Positions 42,603 through 50,837 of a stretch of 64,000 bases of DNA are shown here, one piece after another. The notes under the pieces are model-generated. The model was given only the letters and a program-made list of their open reading frames with translations, did no database searches and had not been told where the DNA came from. Numbering within the stretch: position 1 is the first letter of the stretch; every line of letters begins with the position of its first letter. Source of the stretch: an uncultured Poribacteria bacterium (GTDB taxonomy: Bacteria > Poribacteria > WGA-4E > PCPOR2b); assembly GCA_958296125.1 (NCBI GenBank), contig OY282444.1, positions 4,697,266-4,761,265 of the forward strand, in the 5' to 3' direction. Position numbers and translations under genes: made by a program.

Positions 42603-42839
42603 TTGCTGATGATAGGAATATCTCCAATCGCTAACGACGAAATACTTGTGAATCGTCTATCAAGCAAAGCGGTGTATCTATGCAGTGATAATGATACCGC
42701 AGGAAAGCGAGCCGAAGAGAAACTCGCAAAGGCAATCGGACGAAAAGGCGGCGAGATTTATTTCATACCAGAGCCGACTGCAAAAGACCCCGCCGAAGCA
42801 GCAAGACAAGCACAGGACGTGAACAATGAAAGAAATTAA
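42603..42839 (+). pseudogene. Toprim-domain fragment (primase-like)
   Basis: A 78-codon frame holding only the second half of a Toprim domain. AVYLCSDNDTAGKRAEEKL carries the DxD metal motif and KDPAEAARQA the following Lys-Asp element. This is as in DnaG-type or phage primases and Toprim nucleases. The upstream part of the domain is missing, and neither TTG nor ATG at the beginning has a ribosome site, so it is probably a truncated gene. It overlaps the start of the TPR gene by 14 bp. Confidence 0.55.
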
Positions 42840-44763
42840 GTTTGACAAATGTAAACTGTGGATATCAGAAACCGAACCGAAGCATCCAGATGTCCGAACG
42901 GACATCAAAGATGAAAATGATGCCCGTTCCTATTATAATCGTGGAGCGGCTTACCATAAAAATGGGGATTATGATAACGCTGCCTCCGATTACACCCAAG
43001 CGATAGAACTGAGCCTTGATGGTGCTTATTACGCTTACCTTGGACGTGCGGATGCTTGCCGTGACAAAGGGGATTATGCCAATGCCATTACAGATTATAC
43101 CCAAGCGATACGCCTGAAGCCCGATGATGCTTATGCCTATTTCAGTCGTGGATTGTCTTACTTTATCAAAGGGGATTATAACAATGCTATCTCTGACTAC
43201 ACCCAAGCGATTAAACTGAACCCCGACTATGCCACCGCCTTTGTTCGCGGGTGGGCTTATTATGCCAAAGGGGATTATGATAATGCCATCGTAGATTATA
43301 CACGAGTGATACGCCTGAAGCCCGATTTTGCGGATGCCTATTTCAGTCGTGGGCGTACTTATGATGACAAAGGAGATTATGCCAATGCCATTTCTGACTT
43401 TACCCAAGCGATAGAACTGAACCCCGATTATACAGAAGCCTATTTCTGGCTTGCCAGCGCCTATTTCAATCGTGGATATGCTTACTATGCCAAAGAAGAT
43501 TACGACAATGCCATTTCTGACTTTACCCAAGCGATAGAACTGAACCCCGATTATACAGAAGCCTATTTCTGGCTTGCCAGCGCCTATCGTCGCCGCGGTA
43601 GGGCTTACCGTGCCAAAGGGGATTATGACAATGCTATCTCTGACTACACCCAAGTGATAGAACTAAAACCCGATGATGCCGCTTATTTTTGGCGCGGAGC
43701 GGCTTACTATGCCATTGCAGATTACGATAATGCCATTGCAGATTACGACAAGGCCATTGCAGATTATACCCAAGTGATAGAACTGAACCCTGATTATACA
43801 AGAGCTTGTTTCTGGCTTGCCAGAGCCTATCGTCGCCGCGGTAGGGCTTACTATGCCAAAGGGGATTATGACAATGCTATCTCTGACTACACCCAAGTGA
43901 TAGAACTAAATCCCAATGGTGCTTATGCCTATTTCGATCGTGGATACGCTTACTATGCCAAAGAAGATTACGACAATGCCATTGCAGATTATACCAAAGC
44001 GATAGAACTGAACCCCAATTATACAAAAACCTATCTCTGGCTTGCCAGAGCCTATCGTCGCCGCGGAGAGGCTAACTATAAAAAAGGGGATTACGACAAC
44101 ACTATCGCAGAAGTCTATTCTCAGCTTGCCGATGCCTATTATCGGCGCGGGGAAGTTTACTATGCCAAAGAGGATTACGACAAGGCCATTGCAAATTATA
44201 CCCAAGTGATAAAACTGAAGCCTGATTTTGCTGATGCCTACTCTCAGCTTGCTGATGCCTATTACAATCGCGGAGTGGAGGCTTGCTATAACTGCTATGA
44301 CATAGAGGATTATGACAATGCCATCACAGATTACACCCAAGCGATAAAACTGAAGCCTGATTTTGCTGATGCCTACTCTCAGCTTGCTGATGCCTATTAC
44401 AATCGCGGAGTGGAGGCTTGCTATAACTGCTATGACATAGAGGATTATGACAATGCCATCGCAGATTACACCCAAGCGATAAAACTAAACCCCGATTTTG
44501 CTGATGCCTGCTCTCAGCTTGCTGATGCCTATTACAATCGCGGGGAGATTTACTATTATAAAGGGGATTATGATAATGCCATTGCAGATTACATCCACGC
44601 AATAGAATTGAACCCTGATTTTGCCGATGCCTACTACAATCGCGGAGAGGCTTACTATGACATAGAGAATTATGACGAGGCCTATGACAATGCCATCGCA
44701 GATTACCTAAATGATAAAACTAAACCCCTGATCTTGCGGATGCCTATTACAATCGTGGACTAA
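42826..44763 (+). CDS. Tetratricopeptide-repeat protein
   Basis: A 645-residue protein made almost entirely of TPR-type repeats, roughly 16-17 units. Each has the pattern YYNRGxAYxxKGDYDNAIxDYTQAIxLxPD, with lengths from about 33 to 45 residues. No signal peptide or membrane segment is visible, so it is probably a cytoplasmic scaffold. Units are very alike in DNA, including an almost exact 135-bp tandem duplication. The C-terminus is disturbed: a two-base loss and a one-base gain near 44706-44729 shift the frame, and another TPR unit continues in the new frame to 44897. It sits in opposite orientation between two genes of one transporter. Confidence 0.85.
   Translation: MKEIKFDKCKLWISETEPKHPDVRTDIKDENDARSYYNRGAAYHKNGDYDNAASDYTQAIELSLDGAYYAYLGRADACRDKGDYANAITDYTQAIRLKPDDAYAYFSRGLSYFIKGDYNNAISDYTQAIKLNPDYATAFVRGWAYYAKGDYDNAIVDYTRVIRLKPDFADAYFSRGRTYDDKGDYANAISDFTQAIELNPDYTEAYFWLASAYFNRGYAYYAKEDYDNAISDFTQAIELNPDYTEAYFWLASAYRRRGRAYRAKGDYDNAISDYTQVIELKPDDAAYFWRGAAYYAIADYDNAIADYDKAIADYTQVIELNPDYTRACFWLARAYRRRGRAYYAKGDYDNAISDYTQVIELNPNGAYAYFDRGYAYYAKEDYDNAIADYTKAIELNPNYTKTYLWLARAYRRRGEANYKKGDYDNTIAEVYSQLADAYYRRGEVYYAKEDYDKAIANYTQVIKLKPDFADAYSQLADAYYNRGVEACYNCYDIEDYDNAITDYTQAIKLKPDFADAYSQLADAYYNRGVEACYNCYDIEDYDNAIADYTQAIKLNPDFADACSQLADAYYNRGEIYYYKGDYDNAIADYIHAIELNPDFADAYYNRGEAYYDIENYDEAYDNAIADYLNDKTKPLILRMPITIVD
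44211..44480 (+). repeat. Tandem duplication of a 135-bp TPR unit
   Basis: Two adjacent 135-bp blocks (44211-44345 and 44346-44480) are nearly identical, each encoding 45 residues including EACYNCYDIEDYDNAI. They point to recent repeat expansion by slippage or unequal recombination. Confidence 0.75.
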
Positions 44764-48078: not shown

Positions 48079-48163
48079 AGTTTTCTCAACCTATTAAAGC
48101 AGCTCTTCAGTCCCGGCCTTATTGTAAGGGGAAATTCGTTGCTGTTTCTGCCGAAACTTGAAG

Positions 48164-49777
48164 TTATGGTGAAGCAAGGTTAGATAGTTCTCCTTTGCAA
48201 CAGGCTTTGTGAGTGTAGGAGTAGCCATCTCGCCGTTGAAATCTTTTGAGTTCTTTTGTATTGCCACTGATGCGCGGGTCCCTCTTTTCAAGGGTGGCAC
48301 CTTCCACGCGCACCTTACGCGGCGCACCTTTTTTCGGTGTGTGGTCAAAGCAATTGATAACTCCAACATGGCGGACGCTGACCTTGGTCTTGGAGGGCGT
48401 CGCGTTGCTTGGGAAGGGGAGCAAGAGTTGATTCGGATTTGTCTTCGAGGTTTTGGGCATTGCATCTTCGCTGACCTCCCCGGTTTTCGGGACGGGCTTG
48501 GGTGCGGGGGAACGAGCCTTTTTGGACATGATCACGTGGTCATATTTCCGAAAGCCATCGCCGCCCGAGCGTTTTCTGTTGCCATAGTTGAAACCATGTT
48601 TTTTCTTTTTTGCGTTGCGTTTGCCAACAAGCCTTGTTATGTTCTTGTTCTCGCCTGCCGAAAAAGAAAACAGGTCTCGTTGACCGTAACCCTTCGCTTT
48701 GATGTGGAGGACGGGCAAATGACTGGCGGGCGGCTTCACGGTATCTGCGACGCAAGCGGCATCAAAATGGTGGGTTTTGGGCAGGCCCGACTTGGTGCGA
48801 TTGTGTTTAGTCTGACCGCCTGAACCGTAAACGATCGGGAGACCTGTCCCTTGCAACGTCTCGACTATCTTCCACCGAATCGTATTCACAGCAGCTGCAT
48901 CTGTGAGAGGTTTCTTTGCTTTAGCCATCGCCTTTTTAACTGCTTTTCGGAGATCTTCATCTTTGATTTCATCAGGAAGCCGATTCCCTTTTTTCTCATT
49001 GCAGTGTCGGCATGCGAGGGTTAGGTTATCCACTCGACTACTCCCGCCTTTTGCTTTAGGGATAATATGCTCGATCTGGCTACCGATGCCGCCGCAATAC
49101 GCACATTTGCGTTTGTTTTTCTCTAAGAGATACTCACGGATATTATATCCGAGTAAAGTCCCCTGTTGATACTCAACACCCTTTATTTCAGGGTTATCCA
49201 TCAGCTGCATATCAAACTTGACATGCTCCACTGCAATGGTTGATATCGGATACAGACGACAGAGACGCCCGACAATCGTGTGGATGTTGTAAACACGAGA
49301 CATTAAACTTGGAGCCACCCACCCCTTGCCGTCACCGAACCCTTTTATCCCTTCCCCCATCTTCACTCGACGCATCACCCATGCGCCGTTCTCGAATATC
49401 GGGACAGCCCTTTTGCGATTTTTCCATCTCACCGGCCTGTATCGCAGATTGCGAGTTCTTCTGCCTCGACGGAAGCCTGAACGGTCGGTCAACCTTTTTT
49501 TAATAACCTGACCGCGGTGTTCGATTTCAGCGGCGAAGATGATATTTCGATCGGGGTCGACGAGAGCGATTCCTGTCATCTTGGATCCAGGGTCAACGCA
49601 TACCTGGCAAGCCTTCGTTTTGACGGTATCGGGTGGGATGGCACGCTTGAGGATAATAGTGAAGGGATAGCGTCGCCAGACTGCGGCTTTCCCCGCTTTA
49701 AGCAACTTGCGTGCGCGTGCGGGTCGGCAGGGTTCTAAGATTTGTTGATTTGTATCTAAAACAGCCACTTTCGACAT
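48164..49777 (-). CDS. iscB: IscB: RNA-guided HNH/RuvC nuclease of the Cas9 ancestor family, CRISPR-associated
   Basis: A 537-residue IscB. Domains in order: PLMP/RRXRR domain (1-45, LEPCRPARARKLLKAGKA), RuvC-I with Asp62 (VDPGSKMTGIAL), arginine-rich bridge helix (about 95-123), RuvC-II with Glu184 (IAVEHVKFD), HNH (224-267; zinc pairs Cys225/Cys228 and Cys256/Cys259, Glu236-His237, Asn251), RuvC-III (THHFDAACVAD, His336/Asp339), then a target-adjacent-motif-recognition-type C-terminus. All catalytic residues appear intact. It is longer than most IscBs, mainly through a Pro/Ser/Lys-rich linker (about 415-465). I chose the ATG at 49777 because the PLMP domain begins there. A CRISPR array lies upstream on the same strand; no tnpA transposase is present. 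egtB follows after 85 bp. Confidence 0.95.
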   Translation of the reverse strand: MSKVAVLDTNQQILEPCRPARARKLLKAGKAAVWRRYPFTIILKRAIPPDTVKTKACQVCVDPGSKMTGIALVDPDRNIIFAAEIEHRGQVIKKRLTDRSGFRRGRRTRNLRYRPVRWKNRKRAVPIFENGAWVMRRVKMGEGIKGFGDGKGWVAPSLMSRVYNIHTIVGRLCRLYPISTIAVEHVKFDMQLMDNPEIKGVEYQQGTLLGYNIREYLLEKNKRKCAYCGGIGSQIEHIIPKAKGGSSRVDNLTLACRHCNEKKGNRLPDEIKDEDLRKAVKKAMAKAKKPLTDAAAVNTIRWKIVETLQGTGLPIVYGSGGQTKHNRTKSGLPKTHHFDAACVADTVKPPASHLPVLHIKAKGYGQRDLFSFSAGENKNITRLVGKRNAKKKKHGFNYGNRKRSGGDGFRKYDHVIMSKKARSPAPKPVPKTGEVSEDAMPKTSKTNPNQLLLPFPSNATPSKTKVSVRHVGVINCFDHTPKKGAPRKVRVEGATLEKRDPRISGNTKELKRFQRRDGYSYTHKACCKGELSNLASP

Positions 49778-50206
49778 GAAAAAAAATACCTTTCGGTATA
49801 ACACTTTCTCAAAAAGAAGTAATGTGCGCTTCGCCAATGTTGTAAACGCTTGCTATTAATGAATAGTCGTCCTGGGGTCCACCGCCTCACCTTGACAAGA
49901 GACTTTTAAGTTGCCCCGACAGTTGCTCCCGACTAGCGCTATTCTCTGCGGAATACATCTGGAGGTGTCATAACGTAAACAACGTAGTAAACGAATACTT
50001 AGGCTAGATTGAGATTATAGGTTGTCCAATACACCGTAATGGAGGACAACCCTCCATCAAAAAATGATGGATAACATGGTAGCGGTGCAATCGGTTTGTC
50101 GTCAACATCCCAGTGATTTTGCGCGACTGGACGTTGACGACAAAATCGGAGAGCTTTCGCACACTCGATCCAAGTATAGCTTGAAAAACTTGGACCGAAA
50201 AACGGG
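49778..50206 (-). ncRNA. Putative scaffold RNA (omega/tracr-like) of the CRISPR-IscB locus
   Basis: This 429-bp gene-free stretch lies between the array and iscB, where IscB omega RNAs are normally encoded. On the iscB strand it holds, in order: a 10-bp stem with one G-U pair (50197-50166); a long hairpin with a perfect 9-bp base GTCGTCAAC/GTTGACGAC and an inner CCAGT/ACTGG stem (50141-50098); an anti-repeat (50090-50073); a perfect 7-bp hairpin TCCATCA/TGATGGA (50071-50053); and a perfect 8-bp hairpin GGTTGTCC/GGACAACC (50051-50020). A TATTC/GAATA hairpin (49955-49940) follows. The ends of the RNA are not known. Structure by eye, not by folding software. Confidence 0.7.
50073..50090 (-). other. 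Anti-repeat complementary to the CRISPR repeat
   Basis: On the iscB strand this reads TTGCACCGCTACCATGTT. It can pair with the 3' part of the repeat as transcribed on the same strand at 16 of 18 positions, counting one G-U pair. It matches the plus-strand repeat sequence at 15 of 18 bases but is not followed by spacer-repeat periodicity. This is how a tracrRNA anti-repeat relates to its array. Confidence 0.75.
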
Positions 50207-50762
50207 TTGCAACGCTAACATGCTCAAGCTCAAACTTTGCTTACTTTGGTGGCAAGACCTGCTTGCTGTGGTTGCAACGCTAACATGCTCAAGCTCAAAC
50301 GGGCAATTCTGATTATCGTGAGATTGGTGGTGTATCGTTGCAACGCTAACATGCTCAAGCTCAAACGAGGGACACAAAGCTTCAAGGGAAGCGATAGCCC
50401 ATTTGCAACGCTAACATGCTCAAGCTCAAACTTGTATAGAACCTACACAAATCTGATAAAATGTATTCTTGCAACGCTAACATGCTCAAGCTCAAACACA
50501 TTCCCATACGACCGATCGGCTATCAAGTCGCCCTTTGCAACGCTAACATGCTCAAGCTCAAACTCACTCTCAATTTCTATATCGATCAAAACGCAGTTAT
50601 GTTGCAACGCTAACATGCTCAAGCTCAAACATGAATCCCGAGTGAATTTCCTTGCCTATCTGCTCATTGCAACGCTAACATGCTCAAGCTCAAACAAGGG
50701 CATGTCCTTTCCGCCTTCGGGGTTTTTTTATGGTTGCAACGCTAACATGCTCAAGCTCAAAC
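50207..50762 (-). CRISPR. CRISPR array, 9 identical 29-bp repeats and 8 spacers, next to iscB
   Basis: Plus-strand repeat begins TTGCAACGCTAACATG and ends CTCAAGCTCAAAC. On the proposed sense (minus) strand it begins GTTTGAGCTTGAGC, like many type II repeats. Repeat starts: 50207, 50272, 50338, 50403, 50469, 50535, 50602, 50667 and 50734. All nine copies are identical. Spacers are 36-38 bp and all different. The side at 50763-50835 is AT-rich like a leader and carries a promoter directed into the array. The other side leads to the scaffold region and iscB. No cas1 or cas2 lies in the window. Confidence 0.97.
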
Positions 50763-50778
50763 CAACCAAACGGTAACA

Positions 50779-50807
50779 ATTGTAACATATAGTTTAACAA
50801 CAATCAA
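50779..50807 (-). promoter_or_regulatory. Sigma70-like promoter directed through the array towards iscB
   Basis: On the minus strand TTGATT (50807-50802) and TACAAT (50784-50779) are separated by exactly 17 bases. Transcription would start near 50772, about ten bases before the first repeat (50762). It would run through array, scaffold region and iscB. It lies just past the end of the molybdenum-enzyme gene. Confidence 0.65.
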
Positions 50808-50837
50808 GCAAAAATTGTAGCTTGACTCCGTTCAACC

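Follow-up and report, generated by a model that had tools for sequence, protein, structure and literature searches.

Cas9 is believed to descend from IscB through the splitting of an omega RNA into a CRISPR (clustered regularly interspaced short palindromic repeats) RNA (crRNA) and a trans-activating crRNA (tracrRNA) and through the gain of a recognition (REC) lobe, the site of that gain being the linker between the bridge helix and RuvC-II. A small minority of IscBs was reportedly found to be CRISPR-associated (Altae-Tran and colleagues, in 2021), and a 2025 paper by Zhang F. and co-workers (Nat Commun 16:10693) announces in its title a CRISPR-associated IscB engineered for genome editing. 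The guide sits immediately 5' of omega-RNA base 1 in the IscB complex of known structure, and the published structure equates the guide-adaptor hairpin with the Cas9 repeat:anti-repeat duplex (PMC9640706). Here we describe a 64,000-nt stretch of an uncultured Poribacteria genome (contig OY282444.1, positions 4,697,266 to 4,761,265; hereafter the window) in which an iscB gene, an omega-RNA scaffold and a CRISPR array lie side by side (Table 1). We consider it very probable, from sequence, that these make up a split-guide CRISPR-IscB in which crRNA and a tracrRNA-like omega RNA would let the nuclease cut DNA under the direction of many exchangeable guides. IscBs with CRISPR arrays have been reported before, and this locus adds a member to that kind; like the published ones it has an IscB next to a CRISPR array, and here it belongs to a Poribacteria clade with a covarying repeat and anti-repeat, members with one repeat, and a growing REC-like linker.

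Table 1. Features of the CRISPR-IscB locus, in window coordinates.
Feature	Position	Strand	Description
Inserted unit	about 48106..50829	.	2.7 kb; five genomes of the same genus lack it at the xdh-egtB junction
iscB	48164..49777	-	537 aa, ATG start; profile, domain and alignment evidence
iscB product parts			PLMP-type N-terminus, RuvC-I/II/III, arginine-rich bridge helix, HNH, ~29-aa REC-like linker
Omega RNA scaffold (Rfam HEARO RF02033)	49819..50058	-	full-length match, 64.3 bits, E 2.4e-12
CUCAAUC	50007..50013	-	pairs with repeat nt 1-7 (GUUUGAG); nexus-adjacent; covariation and HEARO register
Anti-repeat UUGCACCGCUACCAUG	50075..50090	-	just 5' of the scaffold; pairing partner of the repeat's 3' half
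Hairpin	50095..50144	-	between array and anti-repeat; 16-nt arms, 94% complementary
CRISPR array	50207..50762	-	29-nt repeat GTTTGAGCTTGAGCATGTTAGCGTTGCAA (iscB strand) in nine copies, with eight 36-38-nt spacers
Promoter-like site TTGATT-N17-TACAAT	50779..50807	-	points into the array; similar placement in L056, L057 and L058

The window protein is an IscB and not a Cas9. It scored 375 bits against the NCBIfam model guided_IscB (NF040563), over the curated threshold of 175, and matched both RRXRR and HNH in Pfam; its closest relatives of solved structure were IscBs without exception, and the catalytic residues D62, E184, H237, H336 and D339 were invariant across a 14-protein alignment that included it. 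These results bear out the original prediction, made from the letters of the window alone, of an IscB with intact PLMP, RuvC, bridge-helix and HNH motifs. The Cas9d and Csn1 profiles gave 46.7 bits (cut-off 375) and 26 bits (cut-off 100), respectively, both under threshold. The start codon is most likely the ATG at 49777 (MSKVAVLD, 537 aa); a longer open reading frame with a TTG start extends to 49837 and overlaps the omega RNA. This is the only full IscB gene in the 5.16-Mb single-contig host genome. Matches of the locus in PADLOC were due to the HNH domain only and were set aside.

The array was as first described: its nine repeat copies are identical across 29 nt and share a single orientation with a period of 65-67, and the eight spacers all differ. 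Nine exact in-register 29-mers cannot be the product of chance. Allowing up to three mismatches, we found no other occurrence of the repeat anywhere in the host genome. We searched 85 genomes from this phylum and made one scan of public genomes, which together yielded eight further loci of the same IscB lineage (L052-L059, with L058 being the same locus as L017), and the linkage recurs among them: counting the window, arrays adjoin iscB in seven loci from six genomes, the other six loci (L052, L055, L056, L057, L058 and L059, in five Poribacteria genomes) also having the array upstream of iscB. L056 and L057 lie ~20 kb apart in one genome (G026, contig C137) and have different repeats and spacers. 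The repeats of the related loci are 30 nt long versus 29 nt in the window. Repeats stay identical along arrays of 9 to 20 copies, while the array of L055 has four copies and that of L052 about five partly degenerate ones; L053 and L054 have a single repeat each. Taken together, the seven arrays hold 74 distinct spacers, mostly of 35-38 nt, with no 14-mer in common. In a protein tree the nine IscBs with repeat and anti-repeat formed one clade (98/100), with the array-less IscBs outside it. Near the L052 array we also saw a second one (L052:7293-7857) with ~37-nt repeats at a period of 73-76, resembling the repeats of the host locus L067. Two further observations concern more distant proteins: L033-L051 comprise many proteins of 330-400 aa, several copies per genome, whose similarity is limited to the N-terminal third of IscB and which are possibly IsrB-like or HNH-less relatives, and a viral contig (L109:1780-3168) has an array-less IscB between apparent ribonucleotide reductase subunit genes, a placement like that of homing nucleases.

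The stretch between array and gene (49778 to 50206) is exactly 429 bp long and without a gene, as originally stated, but it is not empty, since it contains the HEARO/omega RNA and the anti-repeats. A HEARO scaffold lies between array and iscB in the window and in L052, L055, L057, L058 and L059, with the L058 score exceeding the curated cut-off; the array-less loci L060, L061 and L062 and the Ktedonobacter locus L018 scored 134-148 bits. In the window the 5' guide-adaptor stem of the match includes several non-standard pairs. In the HEARO alignment CUCAAUC lines up with the descending strand of this stem, so the first base of the repeat corresponds to omega-RNA base 1 and the spacers thereby occupy the place of the OMEGA (obligate mobile element-guided activity) guide. 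Folded in cis, the window RNA had an energy z of -4.4 versus shuffles, and the unconstrained fold formed the repeat:anti-repeat stem. The hairpin matches in position the TTGCTGTC...GACAGCAA hairpin of L055, L057, L058 and L059, and an anti-repeat was found in all eight related loci, the most altered being that of L053.

Covariation ties the array to this scaffold. Between the 5' end of the repeat and the nexus-adjacent strand, 84% of pairs were standard and covariation was 0.711 versus 0.220 in shuffles (0/500 reaching it), and registers slid as controls gave at most 0.19; this test used 11 rows, four of which were array-less omega RNAs represented by their homologous stem. For the 3' half of the repeat and the anti-repeat the values were 0.250 and 0.123 (1/500; six rows). 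The duplex of a locus with its own repeat was equalled or beaten by 0/500 shuffles in L056 and L054, 1/500 in L058 and L059, and 4/500 in L052, where the repeat (GTTTCAGGCACGAGTT...) is unrelated in sequence to the others and the anti-repeat (AACTCGTGCCTGAATC) likewise. Repeat and anti-repeat change together even where their sequences differ completely. As the array is linked to iscB and its repeat covaries with the scaffold anti-repeat, guides should come from the array and not solely from a flank outside it.

Taking together what the sequence shows of the protein, its scaffold RNA, the array and its linkage to iscB, the covariation, the clade and the joint insertion of all parts, we propose the following mechanism. 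The repeat would correspond to the ascending strand of the guide-adaptor stem of the omega RNA, multiplied to give an array that would be transcribed in the iscB direction and processed to spacer-repeat units. Each crRNA (spacer, then repeat) would pair with the anti-repeat at the 5' end of the neighboring HEARO/omega-RNA scaffold, which would play the part of a tracrRNA joined to an omega scaffold of full size. This duplex would load IscB, and the spacer directly 5' of the stem would guide DNA cleavage by RuvC and HNH. Lying in cis with the scaffold, the last repeat could serve as a one-piece guide. Degenerate repeats occur at the iscB-distal array end in L057, L058 and L059, and promoter-like sites lie upstream of that end in 4/5 loci, each single match being at chance frequency (none was seen upstream of the L059 array); together these suggest that transcription starts at the distal end and that spacers are added beside the scaffold. 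Type II-C systems have the degenerate repeat at the transcription-start end, with the same layout of transcription and acquisition. New spacers would probably be added at the iscB-proximal end by Cas1-Cas2 acting in trans.

The locus entered the genome with array, scaffold and iscB as one unit: in five same-genus genomes the xdh-like and egtB genes directly adjoin, leaving an empty site. At one such site (L103, genome G018) the junction holds a short palindrome (GTAGGGAACGCAGATCTGCGTTCCCTAC), perhaps a small mobile element. No tnpA lies beside iscB, and the only Y1 transposases in the genome are at 355745 and 4411522, the locus being at 4.745 Mb; many IscBs lack tnpA. As to adaptation genes, the host genome has three further full CRISPR-Cas loci with cas1 (L065, L066 and L067), a 53-residue cas1 fragment lies 131 kb from the window locus, and cas1 is present elsewhere in the genome in 5/6 array-iscB genomes. 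Since L066, a type I-B-like locus with >70 repeats of 30 nt at a period of 66-67, has the same repeat length and period as the IscB arrays, spacer capture in trans by Cas1-Cas2 is plausible. Outside the locus, the window also encodes (42826-44763) a tetratricopeptide-repeat protein of 645 aa built from many near-identical units.

Several observations weigh against a split-guide CRISPR-IscB. The window HEARO match falls below the Rfam curated score of 83 bits, and no HEARO was found in L056 at E-values up to 0.01. The 8-nt segments of the covariation rows were cut by hand, with the cut position guided by complementarity in L056 and L055. The window duplex is the weakest of the family, equalled by 68/500 shuffles when position is left free; this candidate pairing draws its support from conserved position and from its relatives. 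No cas1 or cas2 is adjacent to the window locus, the nearest intact cas1 being >1 Mb off, and G083 (the genome of L059, complete at 5.8 Mb) has a CRISPR-IscB array but no cas1 anywhere, which may make it an orphan or a case of borrowed adaptation. Finally, the spacer search that the original prediction had called for gave no convincing protospacer in phage and plasmid records or in Poribacteria genomes, and the four spacers queried against IMG/VR had zero exact matches. Sponge-associated viruses are probably poorly represented in the collections searched, so missing targets are weak evidence either way. One L057 spacer aligned to a gut phage (89% over 36 nt, E 0.03), too weakly to be kept as a target. 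A 22-nt part (AATACATTTTATCAGATTTGTG) of spacer 5 (window 50432-50468) matches a dispersed, possibly non-coding Poribacteria repeat in L095, L097, L100, L101 and L102; outside the array, spacer 5 had no site at up to three mismatches over 30 nt and no full protospacer.

The alternative that survives best, though we think it unlikely, is that the array grows by duplication or recombination independent of Cas1, or serves regulation or maintenance of the element, rather than immunity. The want of cas1 beside any array-bearing IscB locus and throughout complete G083 would fit this, as would the missing phage and plasmid targets and the likeness of spacer 5 to a dispersed repeat over 22 nt; yet the 74 spacers, with their narrow length range and no shared 14-mer, are what integrase capture would give, and cas1 elsewhere in 5/6 genomes points the same way. 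Rather less probable is a device working in cis only, with one long transcript from which the last spacer alone is used, those upstream persisting as non-functional relics of earlier guides. The last repeat does fold in cis onto the anti-repeat, and the one-repeat loci and the cas1-free G083 are in keeping with such a device, but repeats that stay identical along 9 to 20 copies suggest that each copy is kept working or is recent, and decay is confined to the distal end. That a conventional OMEGA IscB with one fixed guide merely had an orphan type I or III array land alongside it, an idea which the host's three full CRISPR-Cas loci (one with repeat length and period like those of the window array) and the one-repeat members L053 and L054 might encourage, we reject as very improbable, because the repeat is unused by other host loci at up to three mismatches, arrays are linked to iscB in seven loci whose differing repeats covary with the scaffold RNA of IscB, genomes of the same genus lack the entire unit, and G083 retains its array without any cas1.

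We therefore return to the split-guide CRISPR-IscB and its place among known systems. With OMEGA IscBs of the KraIscB/OgeuIscB type it shares the protein family, the HEARO scaffold 5' of the gene (though under the curated score) and a guide directly 5' of the guide-adaptor stem; it differs in that this stem is divided, with the ascending strand recurring as the repeats of a CRISPR array, the spacer-repeat unit standing apart from the scaffold and the array lying inside the insert, whereas OMEGA has a single-molecule guide at the transposon end. With type II Cas9 systems (II-D Cas9d and II-C) it shares an array, a tracrRNA-like anti-repeat that pairs with the repeat (by pairing and covariation tests) and a spacer 5' of the repeat, and with II-C the degenerate repeat at the transcription-start end. 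Unlike them, it encodes an IscB that has a PLMP-type N-terminus and lacks a REC lobe, retains a full-size omega scaffold, combines 30-nt repeats with 36-38-nt spacers, and has no adjacent cas1/cas2. Array-less L060-L062 and L018 have almost no linker between bridge helix and RuvC-II, but the repeat-bearing clade adds 25-130 aa there (~29 in the window, ~75 in L017 and L057, ~130 in L059).

The original prediction had cast the locus as a multi-guide nuclease midway between IscB and type II and on the path to Cas9. Linkage in seven loci and covariation uphold the multi-guide, part OMEGA and part type II-like organization; the proposed place in Cas9 ancestry finds no support. The protein groups with Ktedonobacter/Poribacteria OMEGA IscBs and scores poorly against Cas9d, which makes a parallel to Cas9 more likely than a direct ancestor. 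TbaIscB, described (PMC13180657) as the IscB that founded the Cas9 lineage, fell outside the window's clade, a placement that is weak because of its long branch. We offer tentatively, and judge slightly less apt to be right than wrong, a second, independent OMEGA-to-CRISPR transition made in steps within one phylum: an ancestral one-piece omega RNA, next a stem that had been extended and split and had a single repeat, and finally an array built by Cas1-Cas2 borrowed from type I systems, with the REC-like linker enlarging in parallel.

If true, such a transition would replay the origin of Cas9 without being its ancestor. These loci and their array-less relatives form a graded natural series of omega RNA, one repeat and array, in which the homologous stem can be traced base by base, and with the split visible in living loci the order of events would be testable at the bench. 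The series may also offer compact, naturally multi-guide IscBs, and would serve as a natural model for how transposon nucleases turn into CRISPR systems.
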